From Nocardioides oleivorans (GTDB taxonomy: Bacteria; Actinomycetota; Actinomycetes; Propionibacteriales; Nocardioidaceae), in NCBI RefSeq assembly GCF_004137255.1, contig NZ_SDWT01000001.1:2790001-2854000 (forward strand): a stretch of DNA of 64,000 nt. Direction: 5' to 3'. The notes under the pieces were generated by a model. The model did no database searches. It had not been told where the DNA came from and saw only the letters and a list, made by a program, of their open reading frames with translations. Of this stretch, positions 9,873-61,781 are shown piece by piece; position 1 is the first letter of the stretch, and each line of letters opens with the position of its first letter. A program made the position numbers and the translations under genes.

Positions 9873-11521
9873 GCGCACCGCTCTTCTCGATCGTCACCCC
9901 TGTCTACGAGCCGCCGCTGGAGGTCTTCCAGGAGACCTTCGCCTCGGTCCTCGCCCAGGACCTCGACGACTGGGAGTGGATCCTCGTCGACGACGCGTCG
10001 CCGTCGCCGCAGGTGCGCGAGTGGATCCGCGAGCAGGCGGCCACCGATCCACGCATCCGGCTCGTCGAGCGAGCCCACAACGGGCACATCGTCCAGGCCA
10101 CCAACGACGGCGTGGCGGCAGCGACCGGCGAGTTCCTGGCGTTCGTCGACCACGACGACCTGCTGACCCCCGACGCCCTCGAGGCGATGGCCCGCCACAT
10201 CGCCGAGCACGACGACGTCGACTACCTCTACTCCGACGAGGACAAGGCCGACGCCGACGGCACGCTCCACTCGCCGTTCCGCAAGCCGACGTGGTCGCCC
10301 GAGCGGTTGCGCGGCCAGATGTACACCTCGCACCTGTCGGTGATGCGCACCTCGCTCGTGCGGGAGGTCGGCGCCCTGCGCGAGGGCTACGACGGGTCCC
10401 AGGACCACGACCTCGCGCTCCGGGTGAGCGAGCGGGCCCGGCGCGTCGTGCACGTCGCGCAGGTGCTCTACCACTGGCGCGCCATCGCGGGCTCGGCAGC
10501 GGCCGACATCGACGCCAAGCCCTACGCCACCATCGCCGGGCAGCGTGCCGTCCAGGACCAGCTCGACCGGCTCGGGATCGCCGGACGGGTCGAGCAGGGC
10601 CGCGAGGCCGGCCGCTACGTCATCCAGCGCGACCTGGACCCGTCCGTGAAGGTCTCGGTCATCATCCCGACGCTCGGCAGCTCGGCCCTCGTCTTCGGCG
10701 AGCACCGCGTCCTGGTCGAGGAGACGGTGCGGTCCGCGCTGGCGAAGACCGACCACGACAACGTCGAGATCGTCGTCGTCCACGACACGCCCACCCCCGA
10801 GGCGGTGCTCGAGCGCCTGCGCGAGATCGCCGGCGACAAGCTCGTCCTGGAGGAGTTCACCCAGCCCTTCAACTTCTCCGCGAAGTGCAACGTCGGCGCG
10901 CTGGTCGCGACGGGGGAGCGCCTGGTCTTCCTCAACGACGACGTCGAGGTGATCAGCGAGCGCTGGCTGGAGAACCTGGTCGGCCCGCTCGACGAGCCCG
11001 ACGTCGGCCTGACAGGGGCCAAGCTCTACTTCAGCGACGGCTCCATCCAGCACGCCTGCCACGGCTACTGGGGCAAGCACTACCACCACCCCTTCCGATT
11101 CCGCACCCGCGAGGACCCCGGCCCCTTCGGCGAGCTGGCGGTCAACCGCGAGGTCACCGGCGTCACCGCCGCCTGCGCAGCGGTCCGGCGCGAGGTGTTC
11201 CTCGCCGTCGGCGGCTTCACCGAGGCGCTGCCGTCCAACTTCAACGACGTGGACTTCTGCTACAAGGTCGCCCACCACGGGTTCCGCACGGTCTGGGTCG
11301 CCAACTGCGAGATGTTCCACTTCGAGTCGCAGACGCGCGACGGCAGCGTGCAGCCGTGGGAGCGCCACTTCGTCGTACGCCGCTGGGGCGTCCCGGACGA
11401 GGACCTCTACACGCCCGCCTCGATCGCCGCGCCGATGATGGACCCGCACCGGCTGCTCGACATGCAGCTGGTCGAGACGCGCAAGCCGGTCGCCCGCAAG
11501 GGCGCCCGCGCGCGGAAGTAG
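9869..11521 (+). CDS. Two-domain family 2 glycosyltransferase
   Basis: 550 residues with two GT-A domains in tandem. Domain 1 (about 1-240) has SIVTPVYEPP, VDDASP, VDHDDLLTPDAL and YSDEDK. Domain 2 (about 255-500) has VSVIIPTLGS, FSAKCNVGA and LNDDVEV as the metal-binding DxD region. Such double GT2 proteins build O-antigen-like or cell-wall polysaccharide from nucleotide sugars on the inner membrane face; the sugar cannot be read from sequence. No membrane segments. Overlaps the coiled-coil gene by 4 bases. It opens the polysaccharide island. Confidence 0.9.
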   Translation: MSAPLFSIVTPVYEPPLEVFQETFASVLAQDLDDWEWILVDDASPSPQVREWIREQAATDPRIRLVERAHNGHIVQATNDGVAAATGEFLAFVDHDDLLTPDALEAMARHIAEHDDVDYLYSDEDKADADGTLHSPFRKPTWSPERLRGQMYTSHLSVMRTSLVREVGALREGYDGSQDHDLALRVSERARRVVHVAQVLYHWRAIAGSAAADIDAKPYATIAGQRAVQDQLDRLGIAGRVEQGREAGRYVIQRDLDPSVKVSVIIPTLGSSALVFGEHRVLVEETVRSALAKTDHDNVEIVVVHDTPTPEAVLERLREIAGDKLVLEEFTQPFNFSAKCNVGALVATGERLVFLNDDVEVISERWLENLVGPLDEPDVGLTGAKLYFSDGSIQHACHGYWGKHYHHPFRFRTREDPGPFGELAVNREVTGVTAACAAVRREVFLAVGGFTEALPSNFNDVDFCYKVAHHGFRTVWVANCEMFHFESQTRDGSVQPWERHFVVRRWGVPDEDLYTPASIAAPMMDPHRLLDMQLVETRKPVARKGARARK

Positions 11522-51821: not shown

Positions 51822-53234
51822 ATGCACCATCGCATTCGCCCACTCCGCCTCACCGCGGTCACCCTGACCGCAGGAGCGCTGTCTGCCGGGCTGCTGGTCG
51901 CCCCGTCGGCCTCCGCCGACCCGTCGCCGGCGCTCACGTCCGCCAAGGCCGCCGTGGCCGGCACCGACAGCACGCCGTCCACGATCGCCGCCGAGTGGAT
52001 CGCCGGAGAGCTCAGCAACGGCCTGATGGTCTCCTCGTCCGGTCCGGACTTCGGCCTCACGATCGACACCGGGATGGCGCTGTCGACGGTCGCCAGCCAG
52101 GGCGGCACCGTCACCGCCATCAACAACTCCCTCGAGCCGCGGATCGCCGAGTACGTCGGTGACGGGACCAAGGAGTCCTACGCCGGTGCGCTGGCCAAGT
52201 CGGCCACGTTCGCCCGGACCGCCAAGAAGAACCCGACCAGCTACGGCGGGATCAACCTGATCACCCGGCTCGAGGAGCGCACCGCCAACGTCCCGGCCGA
52301 CCCCGCCGCCGAGCCGCAGGCCGCTGCCATCGCCGGCCGGATCTTCGACAAGTCGGAGTTCGGCAACTACGCCAACGTCGTGGGCCAGTCCTACGCCGTG
52401 CGCGCGCTGACGCTGGCCGGCTCCGCCGAGGCCGGCGCCGCCCGCGACTTCCTGCTCAAGCAGCAGTGCGCCTCGGGCGCCTTCCGCCTCAACTTCGACA
52501 AGGCGGACGTGCCCAGCCAGTCGTGCACCGAGGGCGTGGCGGGCAGCACCGCCGACCCCGACGCCACGGCGCTGGCCGTGATCAACCTCGTCGAGTCGGG
52601 CGACAAGTCCGCGGCCGTCGTGGGTGCGCTGGCCAAGGCCGGCACCTGGCTCGCGGCGCGCCAGCGCAACAGCGGTGCCATCCGCAGCGCCGGAGACGGC
52701 GCCCAGATCAACACCAACTCGACGGCCATCGGTGGCTACGCCCTGGGCCTGCTGAAGAACCGCGACGCGGCCCTCAAGGCCGCGCTGTGGGTGCGCAAGA
52801 ACCAGCCCGTCGACAAGTACAAGTGCCGTACGGCGCTGACCAAGGACACCGGCGCCGTCGCCTTCCGCAGGGACCGCGTGACGGGGGCCACCACCACCGG
52901 CATCCCCGCCGCCGCGCGCGACGAGTGGCGCCGTGCCACCTCGCAGGCCATCCTCGGTCTCCAGTTCGCCCCGGCGAGCAAGGACAAGCTGCGCATCGTC
53001 TCGGTGCGCAAGCAGGCCCGCGCCGGTGAGCGCGTCCAGTTCCAGGTGTACGGCCTCGCCCCGAGCGAGAGCGCGTGCATGCAGGTCAAGGGCGACTTCC
53101 TGCGCGTCAAGGGCAAGAAGACCGGCGACAAGATCGTGCGCAAGCTGCAGCTGCCGACCGGGAACCAGCGTCGCGTGGGCCTCATCAAGACCTCGGACGA
53201 CGAGGCACGTACGTCGCTGCGCGTGCGCAACTGA
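51822..53234 (+). CDS. Secreted alpha/alpha-toroid protein, paralogue of the riboswitch-controlled one
   Basis: 470 residues. A Sec signal peptide (about 1-32, ending SASA) is followed by a prenyltransferase/squalene-oxidase-like alpha/alpha-toroid region (about 45-385) with helical repeat marks such as SYAGALAKSATFA, NYANVVGQSYAVRAL and DATALAVINLVES. A conserved Cys pair, C216 (FLLKQQC) and C235, is likely disulfide-bonded. A beta/Ig-like domain closes the protein (about 390-470, VQFQVYGLAPSESACMQV). No catalytic motif seen. It shares architecture and many positions with the protein at 53552, so a common ligand is likely. A terminator and the riboswitch separate the two genes. Confidence 0.82.
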   Translation: MHHRIRPLRLTAVTLTAGALSAGLLVAPSASADPSPALTSAKAAVAGTDSTPSTIAAEWIAGELSNGLMVSSSGPDFGLTIDTGMALSTVASQGGTVTAINNSLEPRIAEYVGDGTKESYAGALAKSATFARTAKKNPTSYGGINLITRLEERTANVPADPAAEPQAAAIAGRIFDKSEFGNYANVVGQSYAVRALTLAGSAEAGAARDFLLKQQCASGAFRLNFDKADVPSQSCTEGVAGSTADPDATALAVINLVESGDKSAAVVGALAKAGTWLAARQRNSGAIRSAGDGAQINTNSTAIGGYALGLLKNRDAALKAALWVRKNQPVDKYKCRTALTKDTGAVAFRRDRVTGATTTGIPAAARDEWRRATSQAILGLQFAPASKDKLRIVSVRKQARAGERVQFQVYGLAPSESACMQVKGDFLRVKGKKTGDKIVRKLQLPTGNQRRVGLIKTSDDEARTSLRVRN

Positions 53235-53334: not shown

Positions 53335-53470
53335 TTCGCCGGTCGCGCCCACCCGGGCCGGCACCGCACACACGCCCGAGCAGGGGAAAGCCGGTCCGAC
53401 TCCGGCGCTGACCCGCAACCGTGGGCACGGGAGGGATCCCGTGCAAGCCGGAACACCCGACTCGACGCGT
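53335..53470 (+). ncRNA. Cobalamin (B12) riboswitch
   Basis: The conserved core is visible: GGGGAAAGCCGGT (from 53383) with pairing CCGG at 53403, then the GCTGACCCGCAACCGTG block (53407-53423), a hairpin GCACGGGA/TCCCGTGC (53425-53444), and the B12 box AGCCGGAACACC (about 53446-53457). These are diagnostic for adenosylcobalamin-type riboswitches of actinobacteria. The outer ends (P1) are uncertain. It controls the toroid - DUF4430 - ECF operon, which argues strongly for a corrinoid role. Confidence 0.9.
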
Positions 53471-53551: not shown

Positions 53552-55441
53552 ATGAAGCTCACCCCCTCCAGCAGGTCATTCTCGGGTCTCGCGCTGGCCG
53601 TCACCGCCACGGTGCTCGTCCAGCCCCTCCTCTCGGCTCCGGCCGGCGCCGCCCAGGTGCCGTCCGCCGGTGACCGCGCCACCACGGCCGGTGCCGCGTG
53701 GCTGAAGTCCCAGCTCACCAACGGCATCCTCCACAACGCCGAGTACGACTACGACGACCTCGGCCTCACGGCCGACATCGCCTTCGCCCTCGACGCCGTC
53801 GGCGGGCAGGCCGCCGCCGTGACGCAGGTCGTCGACGCGATCGAGCCGAAGGCAGAGGCCTGGGTGGGCGGCTTCACGCCCGGCCGGGTGTATGCCGGCA
53901 GCCTGGCCAAGCTCGTCAGCGTCGTCCAGGTCGCCGACCAGGACCCGAGGTCGTACAACGGCACCGACCAGGTCGCCCGTCTCGAGGGCCTCGTCGCCTC
54001 GGCGGCACCGCTGACCGGTCGCCTCCAGGACGCCGGCGTGGTGGCCGGCGACCCCTTCGACGCCGACTACGTCGCGGTCGTCGGGCAGTCGTTCGCCGCG
54101 CGCGCCCTCACCGACGCCGGATCCGCCCGCGCCGCGGCGGCCACGTCGTTCCTCCTCGACCAGCAGTGCGACGCCGGCTTCTTCCGGGAGAAGCTGACGG
54201 CCGACAAGACCGCCGCCGAGCAGGGCTGCGTGTCCGGCACCGACGTCGGCAACGTCGACGCGACCGCCTTCGCCGTGATCAACATCCTCGAGACGCCCGA
54301 TGCGCCTGCAGCGGCAAGGGGTGCGGCCTACGTCGCCGCGAGCTGGCTGACGTCGCAGCAGGCGGCCGACGGCTCGTTCAGCGCCGGTTCGCTCGGCACC
54401 AACGCCAACACGACCGGCCTGGCCGGCTGGGCGCTCGCCGAGGCCGGGCAGGACGGTGCCGCGTCGAAGGCCGCCGCCTGGCTGCGTGGTTCCCAGGTCG
54501 CCGCGCTGGCGCCCTGCACCTCGACCCTGTCGGCCGACAACGGCGCCGTCACCTACACCCCGGCGGACCTCACCGCCGCGCGCGCGGCGGGCTCCTTCTC
54601 GATCCCCGCGCGCGAGGTCACGCGCCGCGCGAGCGCCCAGGCCCTCCCGGTCCTGGCCCACGTCCCCGCGGGCGCCGGCGCACTCGGGGTCACGGCACCG
54701 GCATCGGCCGTGCAGGGCACGTCGGTCACCGTCACGGTGAACGGCCTCGGCGCAGGCGAGCCGGCGTGCGTGACCCTGGGGTCGGAGTCCAGGGCGGTCA
54801 CCGGCACGGGCGCCGGCGTCGACGCCTCCTTCACGCTCCCCGCGACACCGGGTGACCGCACCATCAGCGTCACCACGCTCGGTGCCGCGCCCACCACCCG
54901 CACCCTGTCGGTGCAGGGCCCGCCCTCCGCCGCGCGCGGCTCGGTCAGGGGCGTCCGCCTCGAGGGCCCGTCGGGCTTCCGCGAGGCGGGCAGCACCGCC
55001 GCCCTCACGGTCGTCGGCGCCGCCCCGGGCGCGCAGTACGTCCTCCGCGGCCCGGGCATCGACGCCACCGTCGTCACCGGCTCCGACGGGGTGCTGACGC
55101 GACTGGTGGCCCTGCCGAACCAGACCGCGACCGCGCAGTACGTCCTCTTCGGCGTCGACGGCCAGATCGCCGACGACACCCGGGTGCTCGGCGAGAAGAC
55201 CTTCAAGGTCGCCGTGCTCAAGGCCGACGGGCCGCGCACGCGTGTGCTGGTGCGCGGCATGGAGCCGGGCGAGAAGGTGAAGATCGTGGTCGCGGGCGAC
55301 ACCCTCGCCAAGGGCCGCGCCAACGACAAGGGCCGCTTCGTCGCCCGCGTCGCGCTGCCCACCGACAAGGCGAAGGTCCGTCTGCGAGCCGTCGGCCAGT
55401 TCCCGGCCCTGCGCTCGGGAAGCACGACCGTCACGCGATGA
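53552..55441 (+). CDS. Secreted alpha/alpha-toroid protein, candidate corrinoid binder
   Basis: 629 residues. Signal peptide (about 1-33, ending PAGAA); toroid region (about 42-365) of prenyltransferase/squalene-oxidase-like helical repeats (TAGAAWLKSQLTNG, VYAGSLAKLVSV, VGQSFAARALTDAG, DATAFAVINIL, NTTGLAGWALAEAG); conserved Cys pair C206 (FLLDQQC) and C226; then two or three Ig-like beta domains (about 380-629). The toroid lacks the DxDD or similar catalytic acids of cyclases, so binding is likelier than catalysis. Animal intrinsic factor and transcobalamin have the same toroid fold for B12. The leader riboswitch and the downstream ECF genes support corrinoid capture, which remains inference. 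Overlaps the DUF4430 gene (ATGA). Confidence 0.83.
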   Translation: MKLTPSSRSFSGLALAVTATVLVQPLLSAPAGAAQVPSAGDRATTAGAAWLKSQLTNGILHNAEYDYDDLGLTADIAFALDAVGGQAAAVTQVVDAIEPKAEAWVGGFTPGRVYAGSLAKLVSVVQVADQDPRSYNGTDQVARLEGLVASAAPLTGRLQDAGVVAGDPFDADYVAVVGQSFAARALTDAGSARAAAATSFLLDQQCDAGFFREKLTADKTAAEQGCVSGTDVGNVDATAFAVINILETPDAPAAARGAAYVAASWLTSQQAADGSFSAGSLGTNANTTGLAGWALAEAGQDGAASKAAAWLRGSQVAALAPCTSTLSADNGAVTYTPADLTAARAAGSFSIPAREVTRRASAQALPVLAHVPAGAGALGVTAPASAVQGTSVTVTVNGLGAGEPACVTLGSESRAVTGTGAGVDASFTLPATPGDRTISVTTLGAAPTTRTLSVQGPPSAARGSVRGVRLEGPSGFREAGSTAALTVVGAAPGAQYVLRGPGIDATVVTGSDGVLTRLVALPNQTATAQYVLFGVDGQIADDTRVLGEKTFKVAVLKADGPRTRVLVRGMEPGEKVKIVVAGDTLAKGRANDKGRFVARVALPTDKAKVRLRAVGQFPALRSGSTTVTR

Positions 55442-56505
55442 CCACCGTCGCCCTGCGCCGGGTGCTCGGCGCGCTCGCCCTCCTGGTGGCCGGTCCGGGG
55501 TTCGCCCTCGGCCCGGCCCCGTCGGCGAGCGCGGCCACCTGCACGTCCTCGGGTGGGGTCAGCGTCGTCGTCGACTTCCGCGAGCTCGGCGGGGGCGTGA
55601 TCACCGGGTGCGCCGCCGACGGGGGAGGGAAGAGCGCCGCAGCGATCTTCCAGTCCGTGGGCATCACCCTCACCTACGCCCAGCAGTCGCCCGGCTTCGT
55701 GTGCCGGGTCAACGGCGCTCCGGCTGCGGACCCGTGCCGGAACACCTCGCCCGCCAACGCCACCTGGGGGCTCTGGTGGTCCGACGGCACGAAGGCCGCC
55801 TGGACGTACTCGCCGTACGGCGTCGGCGCCCTGACCGTGCCCGACGGCGGGTCGGTCGGCTGGTCCTGGCAGCAGGACCGCCCGTCGGGTGGCGCCGTAC
55901 CCCCCGGCGCGGCCCCTCCCGTCAACCCGGCCAGCCCCACGGCCTCGCCGAGCGCGTCGCCGACCGCGACCCCGACCGGCGGCTCGGGTGCCTCGGGTGG
56001 CTCGGGTGGTTCGGGGTCGCCGACCGCCAGCCCGACCTCCCCGGGTGGCGGGAACGGCGGCTCGGGCGGCAAGGGCGGCAAGGGCGGATCCGGGTCGACG
56101 CCGTCGCCGTCGGCGACGCCGTCCGCCTCGCCCACGGGATCGCCCTCCGGGTCCCCGTCGGGAACGCCCTCGGCCTCGGGGTCGCCGTCCGAGAGCCCGT
56201 CCGGGAGCCCCTCGGAGTCGCCGCTTGCCAGTGAGTCTCCAGGAGACTCACGGACCAGCGCGGGTGCCGACGATCCCTCCGATGACCCGTCCCTGGGCAG
56301 TGAGTCTCCTGGAGACTCACGGACCAGCGCGGGCTCCGCGCCGTCCGACCTCGCCCCTGAGTCTCCTGGAGACTCAACGGCGAGCGGCGCCTCGACCGAC
56401 GAGCCCGGACGGGTCCCGGCAGCCGTCACCTGGGGAGTCGTCGCCCTGCTCGCGCTCGCGATCGTGGCCAGCGCGCTGGTCGCACGACGACGACGCGGAG
56501 CCTGA
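55438..56505 (+). CDS. Stalked, membrane-anchored DUF4430 (transcobalamin-like beta domain) protein
   Basis: 355 residues. Signal peptide (1-32); DUF4430 domain (about 35-145) with SVVVDF, GFVCRVNG, WGLWWSDG, WTYSPYGVG and GGSVGWSW, and four Cys (35, 58, 89, 100); a Pro/Ser/Thr/Gly stalk (146-325); one C-terminal membrane helix (328-349) and a short RRRRGA tail, with no LPxTG sortase signal. DUF4430 resembles the C-terminal beta domain of intrinsic factor/transcobalamin. It is presumably held outside the membrane beside the ECF importer. The stalk contains three in-frame copies of a palindromic repeat, encoding ESPGDS at 266-271, 289-294 and 308-313. Confidence 0.85.
   Translation: MTTVALRRVLGALALLVAGPGFALGPAPSASAATCTSSGGVSVVVDFRELGGGVITGCAADGGGKSAAAIFQSVGITLTYAQQSPGFVCRVNGAPAADPCRNTSPANATWGLWWSDGTKAAWTYSPYGVGALTVPDGGSVGWSWQQDRPSGGAVPPGAAPPVNPASPTASPSASPTATPTGGSGASGGSGGSGSPTASPTSPGGGNGGSGGKGGKGGSGSTPSPSATPSASPTGSPSGSPSGTPSASGSPSESPSGSPSESPLASESPGDSRTSAGADDPSDDPSLGSESPGDSRTSAGSAPSDLAPESPGDSTASGASTDEPGRVPAAVTWGVVALLALAIVASALVARRRRGA
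56231..56251. repeat. Palindromic repeat, copy 1 (in DUF4430 stalk)
   Basis: Ten-base arms GTGAGTCTCC and GGAGACTCAC around a central A. The 3' flank GGACCAGCGCGGG is shared with copy 2. Confidence 0.9.
56300..56320. repeat. Palindromic repeat, copy 2 (in DUF4430 stalk)
   Basis: Same arms with central T (the reverse orientation of copy 1). The 5' flank CTGGGCA matches, in reverse complement, the flank of copy 4 at 61761. The encoded peptide is again ESPGDS. Confidence 0.9.
56358..56376. repeat. Palindromic repeat, copy 3 (in DUF4430 stalk)
   Basis: TGAGTCTCCTGGAGACTCA; the outermost pair of the 21-base form is lost (C and A instead of G and C). Encodes ESPGDS in the same frame. Confidence 0.88.
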
Positions 56506-56510
56506 CCCGC

Positions 56511-57638
56511 GTGCCCGGAACAGCCCCGCTCGCCCGGCAGCTGCCACGTGACCTCCACCCGGTCGCGTGGTGGGTGTGGGCGATCGGCCTGGCCACCGCG
56601 GCGTCACTCACCACCAACCCGCTCCTGCTGCTCCTGGTGATGGGCTCGGCGACGGTCGTGGTGATGGCGCGCCGCTCCGGGCACCCGTTCGGCCGCTCGT
56701 TCCGGCTGTACGCCGCCCTCGCCGCCGTCACGGTCGTCCTACGGGTCGTCTTCCGGATCCTCTTCGGCGGCCAGGAGGTCGGGCATGTCCTGCTCGAACT
56801 GCCCGAGGTCCCGCTGCCCGACTGGGCCGCGGGCGTCCGCCTCCTCGGTCCGATCACCAGCGAGGCGCTCCTCGCCGGGTTGTACGACGGCCTCCGGCTC
56901 GCCGCGGTCATCCTCTGCGTCGGCGCGGCCAACTCGCTCGCGAACCCCAAGCGGCTCCTCGCCTCGCTGCCGCCCGCGCTCTACGAGGTCGGCACCGCCC
57001 TCGTCGTCGCGGTCACGATCTTCCCGCAGCTCGCTGACAGCGCCCGTCGCGTCCGTGCCGCGCAGGCGCTCCGCGGAGGCACGACGAAGGGTGTGGGGCG
57101 GCTGCGACGGTTCCTCGTCCCGGTACTCGAGGACGCGCTCGAGCGCTCGCTCGCGCTGGCTGCCGGCATGGACACCCGCGGCTACGGCCGCTCCGGTGGC
57201 GCGACGGTGCGCGAGCGCTGGGTGACCGGCGGGCTGCTCCTCCTCGCCCTCACCGGCATCTGCGTGGGGACGTACGCCTGGCTCGACCCCACCGCGCCAC
57301 AGGTGCTCGCACTGCCCGTGCTCGGCACGGGCGTCGTCGTCGCCGTGGTCGGGCTCGTCAGCGCAGGCCGACGCGTGCAGCGCACCCGCTACCGGCCTGA
57401 TCTGTGGCGCGCGGGGGAGGCGGTCGCGGTCGGCACGGGGCTCGTGGTCGCCGTCCTCGGGTGGTACGTCGGCCACACGCAGGTGGTCGTGGCCTACCCC
57501 GGCGTCGACGTCGCGCCGTACCTCTCGCCCCTCGCGCTCCTGGTCGGCGTGCTCGGCACGGTCCCGGCCGTGGCCACACCGGTCCCCGCGAGCGCCCTCC
57601 CGCAGCGCGACAGCAGCCCGCGCGAGGTGGTCGCATGA
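56511..57638 (+). CDS. ECF transporter transmembrane coupling protein EcfT
   Basis: 375 residues. Membrane helices in the first 100 residues and near the end surround a cytoplasmic helical part with two Ala-x-Arg-Gly-like coupling motifs (AAQALRGG and AAGMDTRGYG) that bind the ATPase grooves. It links the S component to ATP hydrolysis. GTG at 56511 is 5 bases after the DUF4430 stop. The C-terminal half has four extra hydrophobic segments, longer than the minimal EcfT. Overlaps the ATPase gene by 4 bases. Confidence 0.9.
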   Translation: MPGTAPLARQLPRDLHPVAWWVWAIGLATAASLTTNPLLLLLVMGSATVVVMARRSGHPFGRSFRLYAALAAVTVVLRVVFRILFGGQEVGHVLLELPEVPLPDWAAGVRLLGPITSEALLAGLYDGLRLAAVILCVGAANSLANPKRLLASLPPALYEVGTALVVAVTIFPQLADSARRVRAAQALRGGTTKGVGRLRRFLVPVLEDALERSLALAAGMDTRGYGRSGGATVRERWVTGGLLLLALTGICVGTYAWLDPTAPQVLALPVLGTGVVVAVVGLVSAGRRVQRTRYRPDLWRAGEAVAVGTGLVVAVLGWYVGHTQVVVAYPGVDVAPYLSPLALLVGVLGTVPAVATPVPASALPQRDSSPREVVA

Positions 57639-59251
57639 TCGAGCGTGGTGTCGTCGAGCTCCGGGACATCGGCTTCCGGTACGACGAGCACGAGGTCCTC
57701 CGTCACGTCGACCTCACCCTCGAGGAGGGCGAGCTGGTCCTCGTGTCCGGTCGCACCGGGGTCGGCAAGTCCACCCTGCTCGGCGTCGTCACCGGTCTCG
57801 TGCCCCGGTTCACCGGCGGCGTGCTCACCGGTGACGTCCTGCTCGACGGCGCCAGCATCGTCGACCAGCCGCCGCGGGAGCGCGCGCACGTGGTCGGTTA
57901 CGTCAGCCAGGACCCGCTCGCCGGCTTCGTCACCGACACGGTCGAGGAGGAGCTCGCCTACGGCATGGAGCAGGTCGGGACGGCGCCGGAGACGATGCGC
58001 CGGCGGGTCGAGGAGACCCTCGACCTGCTGGGCATCGCCGACCTCCGCGCGCGCGACCTGCGCACCCTCTCCGGGGGCCAGCAGCAGCGCGTGGCGATCG
58101 GCTCGGTCCTGACGATGCACCCGCGGGTCCTCGTCCTCGACGAGCCGACCTCGGCGCTCGACCCCACCGCTGCGGAGGACGTCCTGGCGACCATCACCCG
58201 GCTCGTGCACGACCTCGGGCTCACGGTCCTCCTCGCCGAGCACCGCCTCGAACGCGTCGTGCCGTTCGCGGACCGGGTCTGCCTGGTCACCGCCGACGGC
58301 ATCCGGGTCGACACCCCGCAGGCGGTGCTGGCCGACTCGCCCGTGGCGCCGCCGCTCGTCGAGCTCGGCCGTCTCGCCGGATGGAGCCCGCTCCCGCTGA
58401 CGGTGCGCGACGCGCGGCGACAGGCCCGGTCGCTGCCCGCCCTCGCCCCGCCGGTGCCGCCGGCACCGGTCGAGGTGGACCCGGTGCTCACCGCCCGCGG
58501 GGTGACCGTCGTCCACGGCGCCCACGTCGCCGTGCGCGACCTCGACCTGACGCTGGGTGCCGGCCGGGTGACGGTCCTGATGGGGCGCAACGGCTCGGGC
58601 AAGTCGAGCCTCATCTGGGCGCTCCAGGGCACCGGCAAGCGACGCTCGGGCTCGGTCCACGTGGCCGGCGACGACCCGGCCGACCTGGCGCCCGCCCAAC
58701 GGCGTACGCACGTCGGGCTGGTGCCGCAGAACGCCGCCGACCTGCTCTACCTCGAGTCCGTCGCCCAGGAGTGCGCCGCCGCCGACGCGGGCGCCGAGGC
58801 ACCGGCCGGCACCTGCCGAGGGCTGCTCGACCGGCTGGCCCCGGGCATCGACGGGACCATCCACCCGCGCGACCTGTCCGAGGGACAGCGACTCGCCCTG
58901 GCGCTGTCGATCGTCCTCACCGCCCGGCCGCCGGTCGTGCTCCTCGACGAGCCCACCCGAGGGCTCGACTACGCCGGCAAGGCCGAGCTCGCGCGGATCG
59001 TCGCCGATCTCGCGGCCGACGGGCGCGCCGTGCTGCTCGCCACCCACGACGTCGAGTTCGCCGCGCACGTCGCCGACGAGGTCGTCGTGATGGCCGAGGG
59101 AGAGATCGTCTCCGCCGGAGCGCCGCAGCGGGTGCTCGCCGAGTCGCCGTCGTTCGCGCCCCAGGTCACCAAGGTGCTCGGCGCGCCCTGGCTCGTCGTC
59201 GAGGAAGTCGCCACCGCACTCGCCGACACCCGCGACGAGGACGCACGATGA
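57635..59251 (+). CDS. ECF transporter fused double ATPase (EcfA-EcfA')
   Basis: 538 residues with two ABC ATPase domains in one chain. Domain 1: Walker A GRTGVGKST, signature LSGGQQQR, Walker B VLVLDEPTSALD, switch His in LLAEHRLE. Domain 2 (from about 285): Walker A GRNGSGKSS, signature LSEGQRLAL, Walker B VVLLDEPTRGLD, ATHDVEF. Both sites look active. In most ECF systems these are two subunits; fusion is common in actinobacteria. ATG at 57635 overlaps the EcfT stop; the stop overlaps the S-component start. Confidence 0.93.
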   Translation: MIERGVVELRDIGFRYDEHEVLRHVDLTLEEGELVLVSGRTGVGKSTLLGVVTGLVPRFTGGVLTGDVLLDGASIVDQPPRERAHVVGYVSQDPLAGFVTDTVEEELAYGMEQVGTAPETMRRRVEETLDLLGIADLRARDLRTLSGGQQQRVAIGSVLTMHPRVLVLDEPTSALDPTAAEDVLATITRLVHDLGLTVLLAEHRLERVVPFADRVCLVTADGIRVDTPQAVLADSPVAPPLVELGRLAGWSPLPLTVRDARRQARSLPALAPPVPPAPVEVDPVLTARGVTVVHGAHVAVRDLDLTLGAGRVTVLMGRNGSGKSSLIWALQGTGKRRSGSVHVAGDDPADLAPAQRRTHVGLVPQNAADLLYLESVAQECAAADAGAEAPAGTCRGLLDRLAPGIDGTIHPRDLSEGQRLALALSIVLTARPPVVLLDEPTRGLDYAGKAELARIVADLAADGRAVLLATHDVEFAAHVADEVVVMAEGEIVSAGAPQRVLAESPSFAPQVTKVLGAPWLVVEEVATALADTRDEDAR

Positions 59252-60072
59252 GCACCGTCGAGCCCACCCGGTCGCACCCCGTCCTCGGGGTCGCGCTCCC
59301 GATCGGACCGCGTACGGCAGCGGTGCTCGTGCTGGCTTCGCTGGCCGGGCTGATGATGCTGTGCTGGCCGCTGCTGCTCGACGCCCAGCCGGGCGACCGG
59401 GTGGAGCCGCCGTTCATCTTCCTCGCCCTGCTGCCGGTGGTGATGGTGGTCGTCCTCGCCGAGATGGGGGAGGGCGGCATGGACTCACGCGTCCTCGCCG
59501 TGCTGGGCGTCCTGTCGGCGATCAACGCCGTGCTGCGTGGCCTCGGCGCGGGCACGGCCGGCATCGAGCTGGTCTTCTTCCTGCTCGTGCTCGGCGGCCG
59601 CGTCTTCGGCGCGGGCTTCGGCTTCGTCCTGGGTTGCACGTCGCTCTTCGCCTCCGCCCTGCTCACGGCAGGGGTCGGCCCGTGGCTGCCCTTCCAGATG
59701 ATCTGCGCCGCGTGGGTCGGCATGTTCGCCGGCTTCCTGCCGCGGCGGGTGAGCGGTCGGGGCGAGATCGCCATGCTCGTCGCGTACGCCGTCGTGGCGT
59801 CGTACGCCTACGGGCTCCTGATGAACCTCAGCTCCTGGCCCTTCACGCTCGGCATCGCCGTCCCCGGCCACGAGGGCTCGCTGGCCTACGTCGCCGGCGC
59901 GCCCGTGCTGGAGAACGCCCACCGGTTCGCCGTCTACACGCTGCTCACCTCGACCGGCGGCTGGGACACCGGGCGCGCGATCACGACGGGAATCGCCATC
60001 GTCGTCCTCGGCCCCGCGATCCTCACCACGCTGCGCCGCGCGGCACGGCGCGCCGTAGTCCGCCCCGGCTGA
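59248..60072 (+). CDS. ECF transporter substrate-binding S component
   Basis: 274 residues, about six to seven membrane helices. Segments with the small-residue patterns of S components (LRGLGAGTAGIELVFFLLVLGGRVFGAGFGFVLGCTSLF is broken by short loops) and PFQMICAAWVGMFAGFLPRR, which likely contacts EcfT. Vitamin specificity cannot be read directly; the B12 riboswitch in front of the operon makes a corrinoid (CbrT-like role) or its precursor the best guess. It is longer than single-domain S components (about 180-200 residues). ATGA overlap with the ATPase gene. Confidence 0.85.
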   Translation: MSTVEPTRSHPVLGVALPIGPRTAAVLVLASLAGLMMLCWPLLLDAQPGDRVEPPFIFLALLPVVMVVVLAEMGEGGMDSRVLAVLGVLSAINAVLRGLGAGTAGIELVFFLLVLGGRVFGAGFGFVLGCTSLFASALLTAGVGPWLPFQMICAAWVGMFAGFLPRRVSGRGEIAMLVAYAVVASYAYGLLMNLSSWPFTLGIAVPGHEGSLAYVAGAPVLENAHRFAVYTLLTSTGGWDTGRAITTGIAIVVLGPAILTTLRRAARRAVVRPG

Positions 60073-60171: not shown

Positions 60172-61764
60172 GTGGAGACCTCTCGGCGGGTACTGCTCAA
60201 GGGTGGCCTCGTGGCCGCCGGCGTCACCTTCCTCCCCGGCATGACCGGGCCGCCGCTCGACCTGCGGCCCACTGCTGCGGCGGTCACGCCATTCGACAAC
60301 CCGTTCAGCCTCGGCGTCGCCAGCGGCGACCCGTCACCCGACGGGTTCGTGCTCTGGACGCGGCTCGCGCAGCTCCCCCTCGACGACGACGGCCTCGGCG
60401 GGATGGGCCAGACGGTCCGAGAGGTCGAGTGGCAGGTCGCCACGGACCCGGTCTTCCGGCGCGTCGTCCGCCGCGGCAGGACGCGCACCGGGCCGGCGCA
60501 GGGCCACGCGATCCACCTCGAGCCGTCAGGTCTCCAACCCGACCGCGACCACTGGTACCGGTTCCGGCTCGGCCGCCACCTCTCACCCGTCGGCCACACC
60601 CGGACCGCCCCGCGTCCGGACTCGGCACCCGCCGCGCTCGCGGTGGCGTACGCCTCGTGCGCCCAGTGGGAGCACGGGTGGTTCACCGCCTACCGCCGGA
60701 TGGCCGAGGACGAGCCCGACCTCGTGCTGCACCTCGGCGACTACCTGTACGAGTACGACCCCGGCTTCGAGCCGCCCGCGAGCGGCACCGTCCGCCACCA
60801 CCAGGGTCCCGAGACGGTGACGCTGGCGGACTACCGGCGCCGGCACGCGCAGTACAAGACCGACGAGGACCTCCAGCTGCTGCACGCGACCGCACCGTGG
60901 GTCGCCGTCTTCGACGACCACGAGGTCAGCGACAACTGGGCGGACGAGAGCCCCGGTACGACGACCCGCCGCGACGGGTTCGGCGAGCGCCGCGCCGCCG
61001 CGCTGCGGGCCTACTGGGAGAACATGCCGCTGCGCCGCTCGGCCTTCCCGCAGGGCCCGGACATGCGGGCGAACCGGCGCTTCCAGTGGGGCGGGCTCGC
61101 GACGTTCCACATGCTCGACACCCGGCAGTACCGCGACCGGCAGGCCTGCGGCGACGGCATGGGCACGTGCGACGAGACGTGGGAGCCGGACCGCTCGATC
61201 CTCGGCACGTCGCAGGAGGCGTGGGTCGACGAGGGGCTGCGTACGTCCACCGCGACGTGGGACGTGCTCGGCCAGCAGGTGCCGTTCGGTCGCCTCGAGC
61301 TGAGCCCGGTCGAGATCGGGCGGCTGTCGATGGACACCTGGGACGGCTACCCGTCGTGCCGCGACCGGGTGCTCGACTCGATGGCGCAGGCGGCCAACCC
61401 GGTCGTGCTGACCGGCGACGTGCACGACTCGTTCGCGACCGAGGTGTGGCGCGACCACGAGGACCCCGCGTCGGTGGCCGTGCCCGAGATCATCTGCACC
61501 TCGGTCTCGAGCAACGGCGACGGCGAGGACACCCCGGACGGCAGCTTCCGCTACGCGCGGACCAACCCGCAGGTGAAGTTCTGGAACGAGCTGCGCGGCT
61601 ACGTGAACCTCACGTTCACCCCCGACCGGCTCGGCGTCGACTACCGGAACCTGCCCTACGTCCACGAGCCCGGCGCACCGGTCTTCACGCGGGCGTCGTT
61701 CGCGGTCGAGGCAGGGTCGCCGCTGCTCCACGAGACGGGTGCGCACCCGCTCGCTGGGTCGTGA
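60172..61764 (+). CDS. phoD: PhoD-family alkaline phosphatase, Tat-exported
   Basis: 530 residues from GTG at 60172. Twin-arginine signal TSRRVLLKGGLVAAG; N-terminal beta domain with SLGVASGDPSPDGFVLWTRL; metallophosphatase core with ASCAQWEHG, LHLGDYLYEY, FDDHEVSDNW, GQQVPFG and LTGDVHDSFATEVW, matching the Fe/Ca-binding PhoD centre. It releases phosphate from phosphomonoesters and diesters outside the cell. The TGA stop lies inside a copy of the palindromic repeat (61761-61781), so the original C-terminus may have been altered by it. Confidence 0.92.
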   Translation: METSRRVLLKGGLVAAGVTFLPGMTGPPLDLRPTAAAVTPFDNPFSLGVASGDPSPDGFVLWTRLAQLPLDDDGLGGMGQTVREVEWQVATDPVFRRVVRRGRTRTGPAQGHAIHLEPSGLQPDRDHWYRFRLGRHLSPVGHTRTAPRPDSAPAALAVAYASCAQWEHGWFTAYRRMAEDEPDLVLHLGDYLYEYDPGFEPPASGTVRHHQGPETVTLADYRRRHAQYKTDEDLQLLHATAPWVAVFDDHEVSDNWADESPGTTTRRDGFGERRAAALRAYWENMPLRRSAFPQGPDMRANRRFQWGGLATFHMLDTRQYRDRQACGDGMGTCDETWEPDRSILGTSQEAWVDEGLRTSTATWDVLGQQVPFGRLELSPVEIGRLSMDTWDGYPSCRDRVLDSMAQAANPVVLTGDVHDSFATEVWRDHEDPASVAVPEIICTSVSSNGDGEDTPDGSFRYARTNPQVKFWNELRGYVNLTFTPDRLGVDYRNLPYVHEPGAPVFTRASFAVEAGSPLLHETGAHPLAGS

Positions 61765-61781
61765 GTCTCCAGGAGACTCAC
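61761..61781. repeat. Palindromic repeat, copy 4 (3' end of phoD)
   Basis: Arms GTGAGTCTCC and GGAGACTCAC around a central A, in the 26-base gap between the convergent phoD and sugar-dehydrogenase genes. It supplies the phoD stop codon, and its 10-bp stem could serve as a bidirectional terminator. Confidence 0.9.

Follow-up and report, generated by a model that had tools for sequence, protein, structure and literature searches.

The animal carriers of vitamin B12 (transcobalamin, intrinsic factor, and haptocorrin) are soluble proteins. In the usual account of energy-coupling factor (ECF) importers, the membrane S component alone captures the vitamin. Secreted transcobalamin-like SLBB proteins that occur with toroids in CbiO/CbiQ operons have been reported from bacteria, and a role in B12 scavenging was proposed for them (Burroughs et al. 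2007, PMC1796856). That clade came mainly from low-GC Gram-positives and planctomycetes, several of its SLBB proteins were noted to carry a Gram-positive anchor motif, and the bacteria with such systems usually lack key enzymes of B12 synthesis. Here we analyze a locus in a stretch of 64,000 nucleotides from Nocardioides oleivorans (GCF_004137255.1, NZ_SDWT01000001.1, positions 2,790,001-2,854,000; hereafter the window), where an exported protein that we call beta is encoded next to an ECF importer. We consider it likely that the beta protein forms the lid of a corrinoid catcher that resembles transcobalamin but is split into two chains, held in the membrane beside that importer and handing B12 to its S component.

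The Lid Domain Has a Predicted Transcobalamin-Type Fold

The beta protein divides into four parts (positions are those of the window):

55438-56505, plus strand: open reading frame of the beta protein, 355 amino acids
55438-55536, plus strand: signal peptide, residues 1-33, identified by inspection (RR n-region, hydrophobic core, A-S-A-A)
55534-55893, plus strand: transcobalamin-type beta (lid) domain, from predicted fold and alignments
55894-56421, plus strand: flexible stalk of ~177 residues rich in S, P, A, G, and T, from sequence
56422-56505, plus strand: C-terminal membrane helix with an RRRR stop-transfer tail and no sortase motif, from sequence and hydropathy

By inspection, the signal peptide ends at ASAA-TC. 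The globular part that follows comprises ~115 residues (approximately 33-150) and contains three cysteines (26, 57, and 68, numbered from 55534) that are invariant or nearly so in alignments of relatives, a pattern that suggests disulfides.

An AlphaFold2 model of the lid domain built from 68 sequences (pLDDT 83.7, pTM 0.78) places it among the animal B12 carriers. Its 15 top entries in the PDB are the beta domains of transcobalamin, haptocorrin, and intrinsic factor together with Ruminococcus 3u7z, at Z scores of 10.3-11.3 (94-97 residues), and the best match of any other fold has Z 6.4; the same families occupy the first 15 places in a Foldseek search with the model (probability 0.98-1.00). 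The model also has short strands at 46-48 and 56-59 after the helix, where the SLBB beta-hairpin insert that contacts B12 would be expected. The domain is thus predicted to adopt the beta-domain (SLBB) fold of transcobalamin and intrinsic factor. This assignment rests on the predicted fold, since sequence comparison gave null or weak results: the Pfam DUF4430 hidden Markov model (PF14478) matches neither the beta protein nor anything else in the genome, none of 41 members of the lid family matched it at E ≤ 0.1, a sequence-profile search of the PDB found nothing, and hhalign of the family against PF14478 members from other actinobacterial classes gave a sensible register but only a weak match (probability 12%, E 0.0024). 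A first-pass annotation of the window had called the domain a transcobalamin-like DUF4430 domain; the fold half of that description agrees with the predicted model, whereas assignment to DUF4430 by Pfam model is rejected, with PF14478 unmatched in this genome and in relatives.

The domain is nonetheless no chance product of one genome, since a genus search with the domain alone as query found it in 88 of the 98 Nocardioides genomes sampled. Its architecture varies beyond the genus. In seven Streptomyces-type lid proteins (L217, L218, L219, L221, L222, L224, and L226) the two halves of the domain stand in swapped order, the profile part ~75-112 preceding the part ~22-70 and the YW half thereby preceding the VVVDF...C half. 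Together the swapped halves score 7.7-31.7 bits, whereas the highest of 228 shuffles reached 6.3, and the Streptomyces-type domain therefore looks circularly permuted. At the N terminus, PF14478 proteins from other actinobacterial classes carry a hydrophobic stretch of export or membrane type, some with a lipobox-like motif, so that membrane attachment of this type of domain may be a recurring theme.

The Membrane Anchor Is Kept across Relatives

The first-pass annotation had described a stalk of about 180 Ser/Pro/Thr/Gly residues followed by a single C-terminal helix and no sortase motif, and all three features hold up. The C-terminal hydrophobic segment of the beta protein has a best 19-residue mean hydropathy of 2.47 and is followed by ARRRRGA; neither LPxTG nor LAxTG was found in the protein, and no NCBIfam family or sorting-signal model matched it at E ≤ 1. 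The absence of a sortase motif is meaningful, since the genome contains four sortase-family matches and anchoring by sortase would be possible.

Loss of this helix in close relatives, which the annotation had named as evidence that would speak against a tether, was looked for in 131 complete, nonredundant Nocardioides-type lid copies (loci L014-L174) in which a C-terminal transmembrane (TM) segment was scored by a hydropathy cut-off. The helix proved near-universal: it is present in 125/131 copies, nearly all with a net tail charge of +2 to +6, and in 12/12 lid proteins from other actinomycete genera and families, which have linkers of 38-132 residues. Two of the six negative copies (L074 and L173) fall only just below the cut-off. 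Two more (L017 and L063) might be taken for natural anchor-less variants, an interpretation we reject because the helix lies in another frame beyond a frameshift in the repetitive coding region of the stalk, and the loss in L165 is probably a frameshift as well; these frameshifts could be either sequencing errors or real phase variation. The only true TM-less copy among the 131 (L047) is a fusion of the lid to its toroid partner, described below. LPxTG and LAxTG are absent from all 125 Nocardioides-type tails and from the 12 lids of other families.

The C-terminal helix could instead be a sorting or retention signal, with an unusual sortase-like or other protease cutting the protein to yield a wall-linked or released soluble B12 scavenger. 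The lid tail does have the tripartite shape of a sorting signal (short motif, TM segment, Arg cluster), the pattern [LVFI]PxW[VLIA] occurs in the last 60 residues of 83/125 Nocardioides-type lids, the toroid partner bears LPxTG or LAxTG in several relatives, and the genome has its four sortase-family matches. However, the tails lack those two motifs and match no known NCBIfam sorting-signal model, LPxW is missing both in the window's own clade (where the sequence is RVPAAVTW) and in other families, and Pro-Trp ahead of a helix is commonplace at membrane interfaces as well. Given its absence from the window's clade, we keep LPxW as a new sorting signal merely as a rival idea, and consider cleavage of the lid unlikely.

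Toroid Partner, ECF Importer, and Riboswitch-Like Element

The beta gene lies within an operon whose other parts, all on the plus strand, are as follows:

51822-53234, plus strand: alpha-1, first alpha/alpha-toroid protein, secreted, no C-terminal TM segment, weak SCO2321_fam match
53384-53458, plus strand: cobalamin riboswitch-like element (RF00174), ~94 bases before the alpha-2 start
53552-55441, plus strand: alpha-2, signal peptide, alpha/alpha toroid (AlphaFold2 model), C-terminal part resembling Ig-like repeats
56511-57638, plus strand: EcfT (CbiQ family), transmembrane energy-coupling protein (PF02361, 9.2e-9)
57635-59251, plus strand: EcfA, two ATP-binding cassette (ABC) ATPase domains in one chain (PF00005 in two stretches; ECF_ATPase models)
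59248-60072, plus strand: ECF S component, substrate-binding membrane protein (PF12822, 3.6e-9)

The two toroid genes are tandem paralogues (36% identity), and both proteins score far below the cut-off of the SCO2321 family (NCBIfam NF053823). Residues 34-372 of alpha-2 are modeled by AlphaFold2 as an alpha/alpha toroid (pLDDT 96.1, pTM 0.94), for which Foldseek returns terpene cyclases, with transcobalamin among the matches at E ~2e-4. With the cavity half encoded separately as a toroid, the chain at 55438-56505 would be the lid half alone, a point absent from the first-pass annotation. The alpha-2 stop overlaps the beta start (ATGA), and a toroid gene adjoins the lid gene in nearly all of 80 loci compared. 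Natural fusions join the two parts in both orders: in L091 (minus strand, 1103 amino acids) beta (match ~11003-11416) is followed by the toroid and then a TM segment, and in L047 (6994-8535, an open frame of 513 residues with no C-terminal TM segment) the toroid precedes beta, as in animals. How the toroid is anchored differs among lineages. It has no anchor in 103/105 Nocardioides-type cases; among 15 others, five have LPxTG or LAxTG (L220, L221, L222, L227, and L231) and four a TM segment without such a motif. The lid in those five loci, where identified, lacks the motif.

Directly downstream of beta, in nearly every locus compared, come EcfT, EcfAA, and the S component, which supports the link to an ECF importer made in the first-pass annotation. 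The S-component start overlaps the EcfA stop, and other starts in the operon overlap or sit near the preceding stops. With EcfT, a double ATPase, and an S component all encoded in one operon, the importer has the makeup of a dedicated (group I) ECF transporter. The order alpha-beta-EcfT-EcfAA-S holds in almost all 80 loci and likewise in distant actinomycete families.

The riboswitch-like element would tie this operon to cobalamin, at a score close to the Rfam threshold. In the window, searching 421 bases gives an RF00174 match of 27.3 bits (E 3.6e-5), and in three relatives with a match before the alpha gene (L095, L123, and L142) the score is 25.5-28.7 bits, all under the gathering score of 31.5 bits; before the alpha gene of L157 (Aeromicrobium) the match is above it. 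No riboswitch was found before alpha-1. A second cobalamin riboswitch above the gathering score lies elsewhere in L157 (16190-16303, minus strand), away from the lid operon.

B12 riboswitches can control importers of cobalt too, and a CbiQ/CbiO-type importer with such an element would also fit import of cobalt, or of another ligand, rather than B12. In line with this, EcfT matches the "Cobalt transport protein" family PF02361, the ATPase matches cbiO, and the genome encodes CbiC, which may imply a need for cobalt. Yet the S component belongs to PF12822, not CbiM, and both outside halves resemble parts of transcobalamin, which is made for a large corrinoid. We judge a noncorrinoid ligand improbable. 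CbiC also bears on how the organism would use the system: a B12-auxotroph genome is not supported, and since CbiC is encoded, salvage alongside own synthesis is possible, such that the system may recover B12 or its precursors in an organism also able to make the ring.

Stalk Length Is Not Conserved and Part of the Stalk Appears to Be Repeat Expansion

Linker lengths, which the first-pass annotation had proposed comparing across relatives, differ widely. Nocardioides-type linkers have a median of 131 and a minimum of 36 residues, 17/125 are shorter than 60, and the longest in a separate lid protein is 222 (one larger value is the L091 fusion); Streptomyces-type lids have linkers of 38-45 residues. 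Taking ~0.36 nm for each residue, a linker of 40 residues spans at most ~14 nm, against a wall of 20-40 nm. As linkers range over 36-222 residues and some are too short for the wall, the conserved trait, judged from these sequences, is the membrane leash and not reach across the wall: the leash proposed for the window is kept in relatives, whereas the proposed reach of the domain through the thick Gram-positive wall is not, and a wall-spanning stalk as a conserved property is rejected. That the long stalk serves to bring the lid out to the far side of the wall is very unlikely. Although its ~177 residues could extend up to ~64 nm when fully stretched, other copies of this operon encode the short linkers above, a disordered chain at rest falls well short of its contour length, and the stalk is partly repeat expansion in the window's clade.

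The stalk repeats, near-identical to one another and missed by the first-pass annotation, are copies of a 17-base palindrome, GAGTCTCCNGGAGACTC, lying inside a longer imperfect palindrome. The window has four copies where 0.03 would be expected by chance, one outside the stalk (core 61763-61779) and three within it (the palindrome is also recorded at L001-L013):

56221-56265, plus strand: stalk palindromic repeat copy 1, core 56233-56249, in-frame ESPGDS
56290-56334, plus strand: stalk palindromic repeat copy 2, core 56302-56318
56347-56391, plus strand: stalk palindromic repeat copy 3, core 56359-56375

Across the genome there are 13 copies, three of them in the stalk gene, and none of a control pattern; the palindrome is present in 16/98 Nocardioides genomes. 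Copies outside stalks share the longer palindrome and many sit just 3′ of genes, while in its flanks two stalk copies match at 22-23 of 32 positions and the third at 16 (random mean 10.5). Stalk copies across relatives lie in one reading frame, both the exact ones (34/34, all ESPGDS) and those with up to three mismatches (69/69), and they use codons that are rare in neighboring genes (TCT accounts for 1.1% of Ser). One genome (G007) has its sole copy in the stalk gene. Another (G012, contig 1, 310831-310949) has four tandem copies that recur every 34 bases. Palindromic elements are known to enter coding genes in Rickettsia. The stalk palindromes resemble these in being dispersed and also lying in frame inside a gene, the trait by which palindromic elements of coding genes are recognized. 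From these sequences, part of the stalk in the window's clade appears to be repeat expansion.

A Proposed Two-Chain Route for B12

These results can be arranged into a mechanism. After export, the C-terminal helix would keep the beta protein in the cytoplasmic membrane, limiting movement of the lid domain to the radius of the flexible stalk. The neighboring alpha/alpha-toroid protein or proteins would provide the cavity half, and toroid and lid would close over one molecule of B12 or a B12 precursor, in the manner of the two domains of transcobalamin, alpha and beta. Since the leash of the lid and EcfT-EcfAA-S sit in one membrane, the closed complex would stay near the S component, which would take over the corrinoid and import it with ATP, and the putative cobalamin riboswitch would reduce production when B12 is plentiful. 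The operon, the riboswitch-like element, the anchor and its conservation, and the missing sortase motif are supported by the results above, and the folds of both halves by predicted models; contact between alpha and beta, binding of B12, hand-over to the S component, and permanence of the anchor are steps that we infer.

Several observations weigh against this mechanism. Sequence models fail to detect a relationship between the lid and DUF4430, and the toroid model is nearer to terpene cyclases (Z up to ~24) than to transcobalamin, the toroid being a common scaffold; a toroid fold that terpene cyclases match best is not by itself specific. The Nocardioides riboswitch matches lie a few bits below the Rfam gathering score, and with CbiC in the genome the organism may make its own B12. 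In ECF transporters the S component itself binds the substrate directly, and for most of these systems no requirement for an external binding protein is known. Taken with these points, a membrane-held lid serving a split corrinoid catcher still appears to us the likely function of the beta protein.

With doubt slightly outweighing belief, we also put forward a broader picture for actinomycetes, a two-station B12 relay in which the toroid may be free, sortase-linked, or membrane-bound according to lineage while the lid is always leashed. Selection would then act on the leash rather than on reach, lid closure and hand-over would give the ECF importer a dedicated outside binding protein, and in one Nocardioides clade the leash would consist partly of in-frame DNA resembling repetitive extragenic palindromes. 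A conserved operon with such a putative transcobalamin-like catcher, split and leashed, lends itself well to testing if ECF importers are able to work with external binding proteins. Because the pattern is widespread, with lids in most of the Nocardioides genomes sampled and the same layout in distant families, it could also matter for B12 sharing in soil.

Comparison with Known Systems

The general system is not new, having been predicted in PMC1796856, and the locus shares with that prediction a secreted SLBB domain, a toroid partner, and a CbiO/CbiQ-type importer. It differs in occurring in actinomycetes, in escaping detection by Pfam DUF4430, in placing lid and toroid on separate genes, and in ending in a TM segment without a sortase motif; the CbiC match also departs from the reported pattern of missing B12-synthesis enzymes. 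In Streptomyces-type genomes a toroid gene of the SCO2321 family occupies the same place in the operon, although there the toroid itself is membrane-anchored, the lid is apparently circularly permuted, and the family cut-off is one that the window toroids miss by far. No functional study of SCO2321-2323 was found in the literature searched. Four features, namely separate genes for lid and toroid in actinomycetes that the DUF4430 model misses, a near-universal leash lacking a sortase motif, toroid anchoring that differs among lineages, and the permuted lid, were not found in the literature on DUF4430 or SCO2321-2323, the coverage of which was incomplete and makes this weak evidence of novelty. 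With that caution, these four may be new, as may the in-frame stalk palindromes.

The B12 transporter ECF-CbrT of Lactobacillus delbrueckii likewise combines an ECF module with a cobalamin S component, according to the available part of its description (PMC5997447), in which the S component itself binds the substrate and no outside catcher turned up. The animal carriers transcobalamin, intrinsic factor, and haptocorrin (2bb5, 2pmv, and 4kki) have the same predicted beta fold as the lid (Z 10.3-11.3) and, as here, an alpha/alpha toroid as their other half, the link to cobalamin being made in Nocardioides by the riboswitch-like element. Whereas each animal carrier is one chain, the Nocardioides protein pair is two, with beta attached to the membrane through its stalk and helix, and it thus offers a bacterial two-chain comparison for how the animal B12 carriers close over their ligand.

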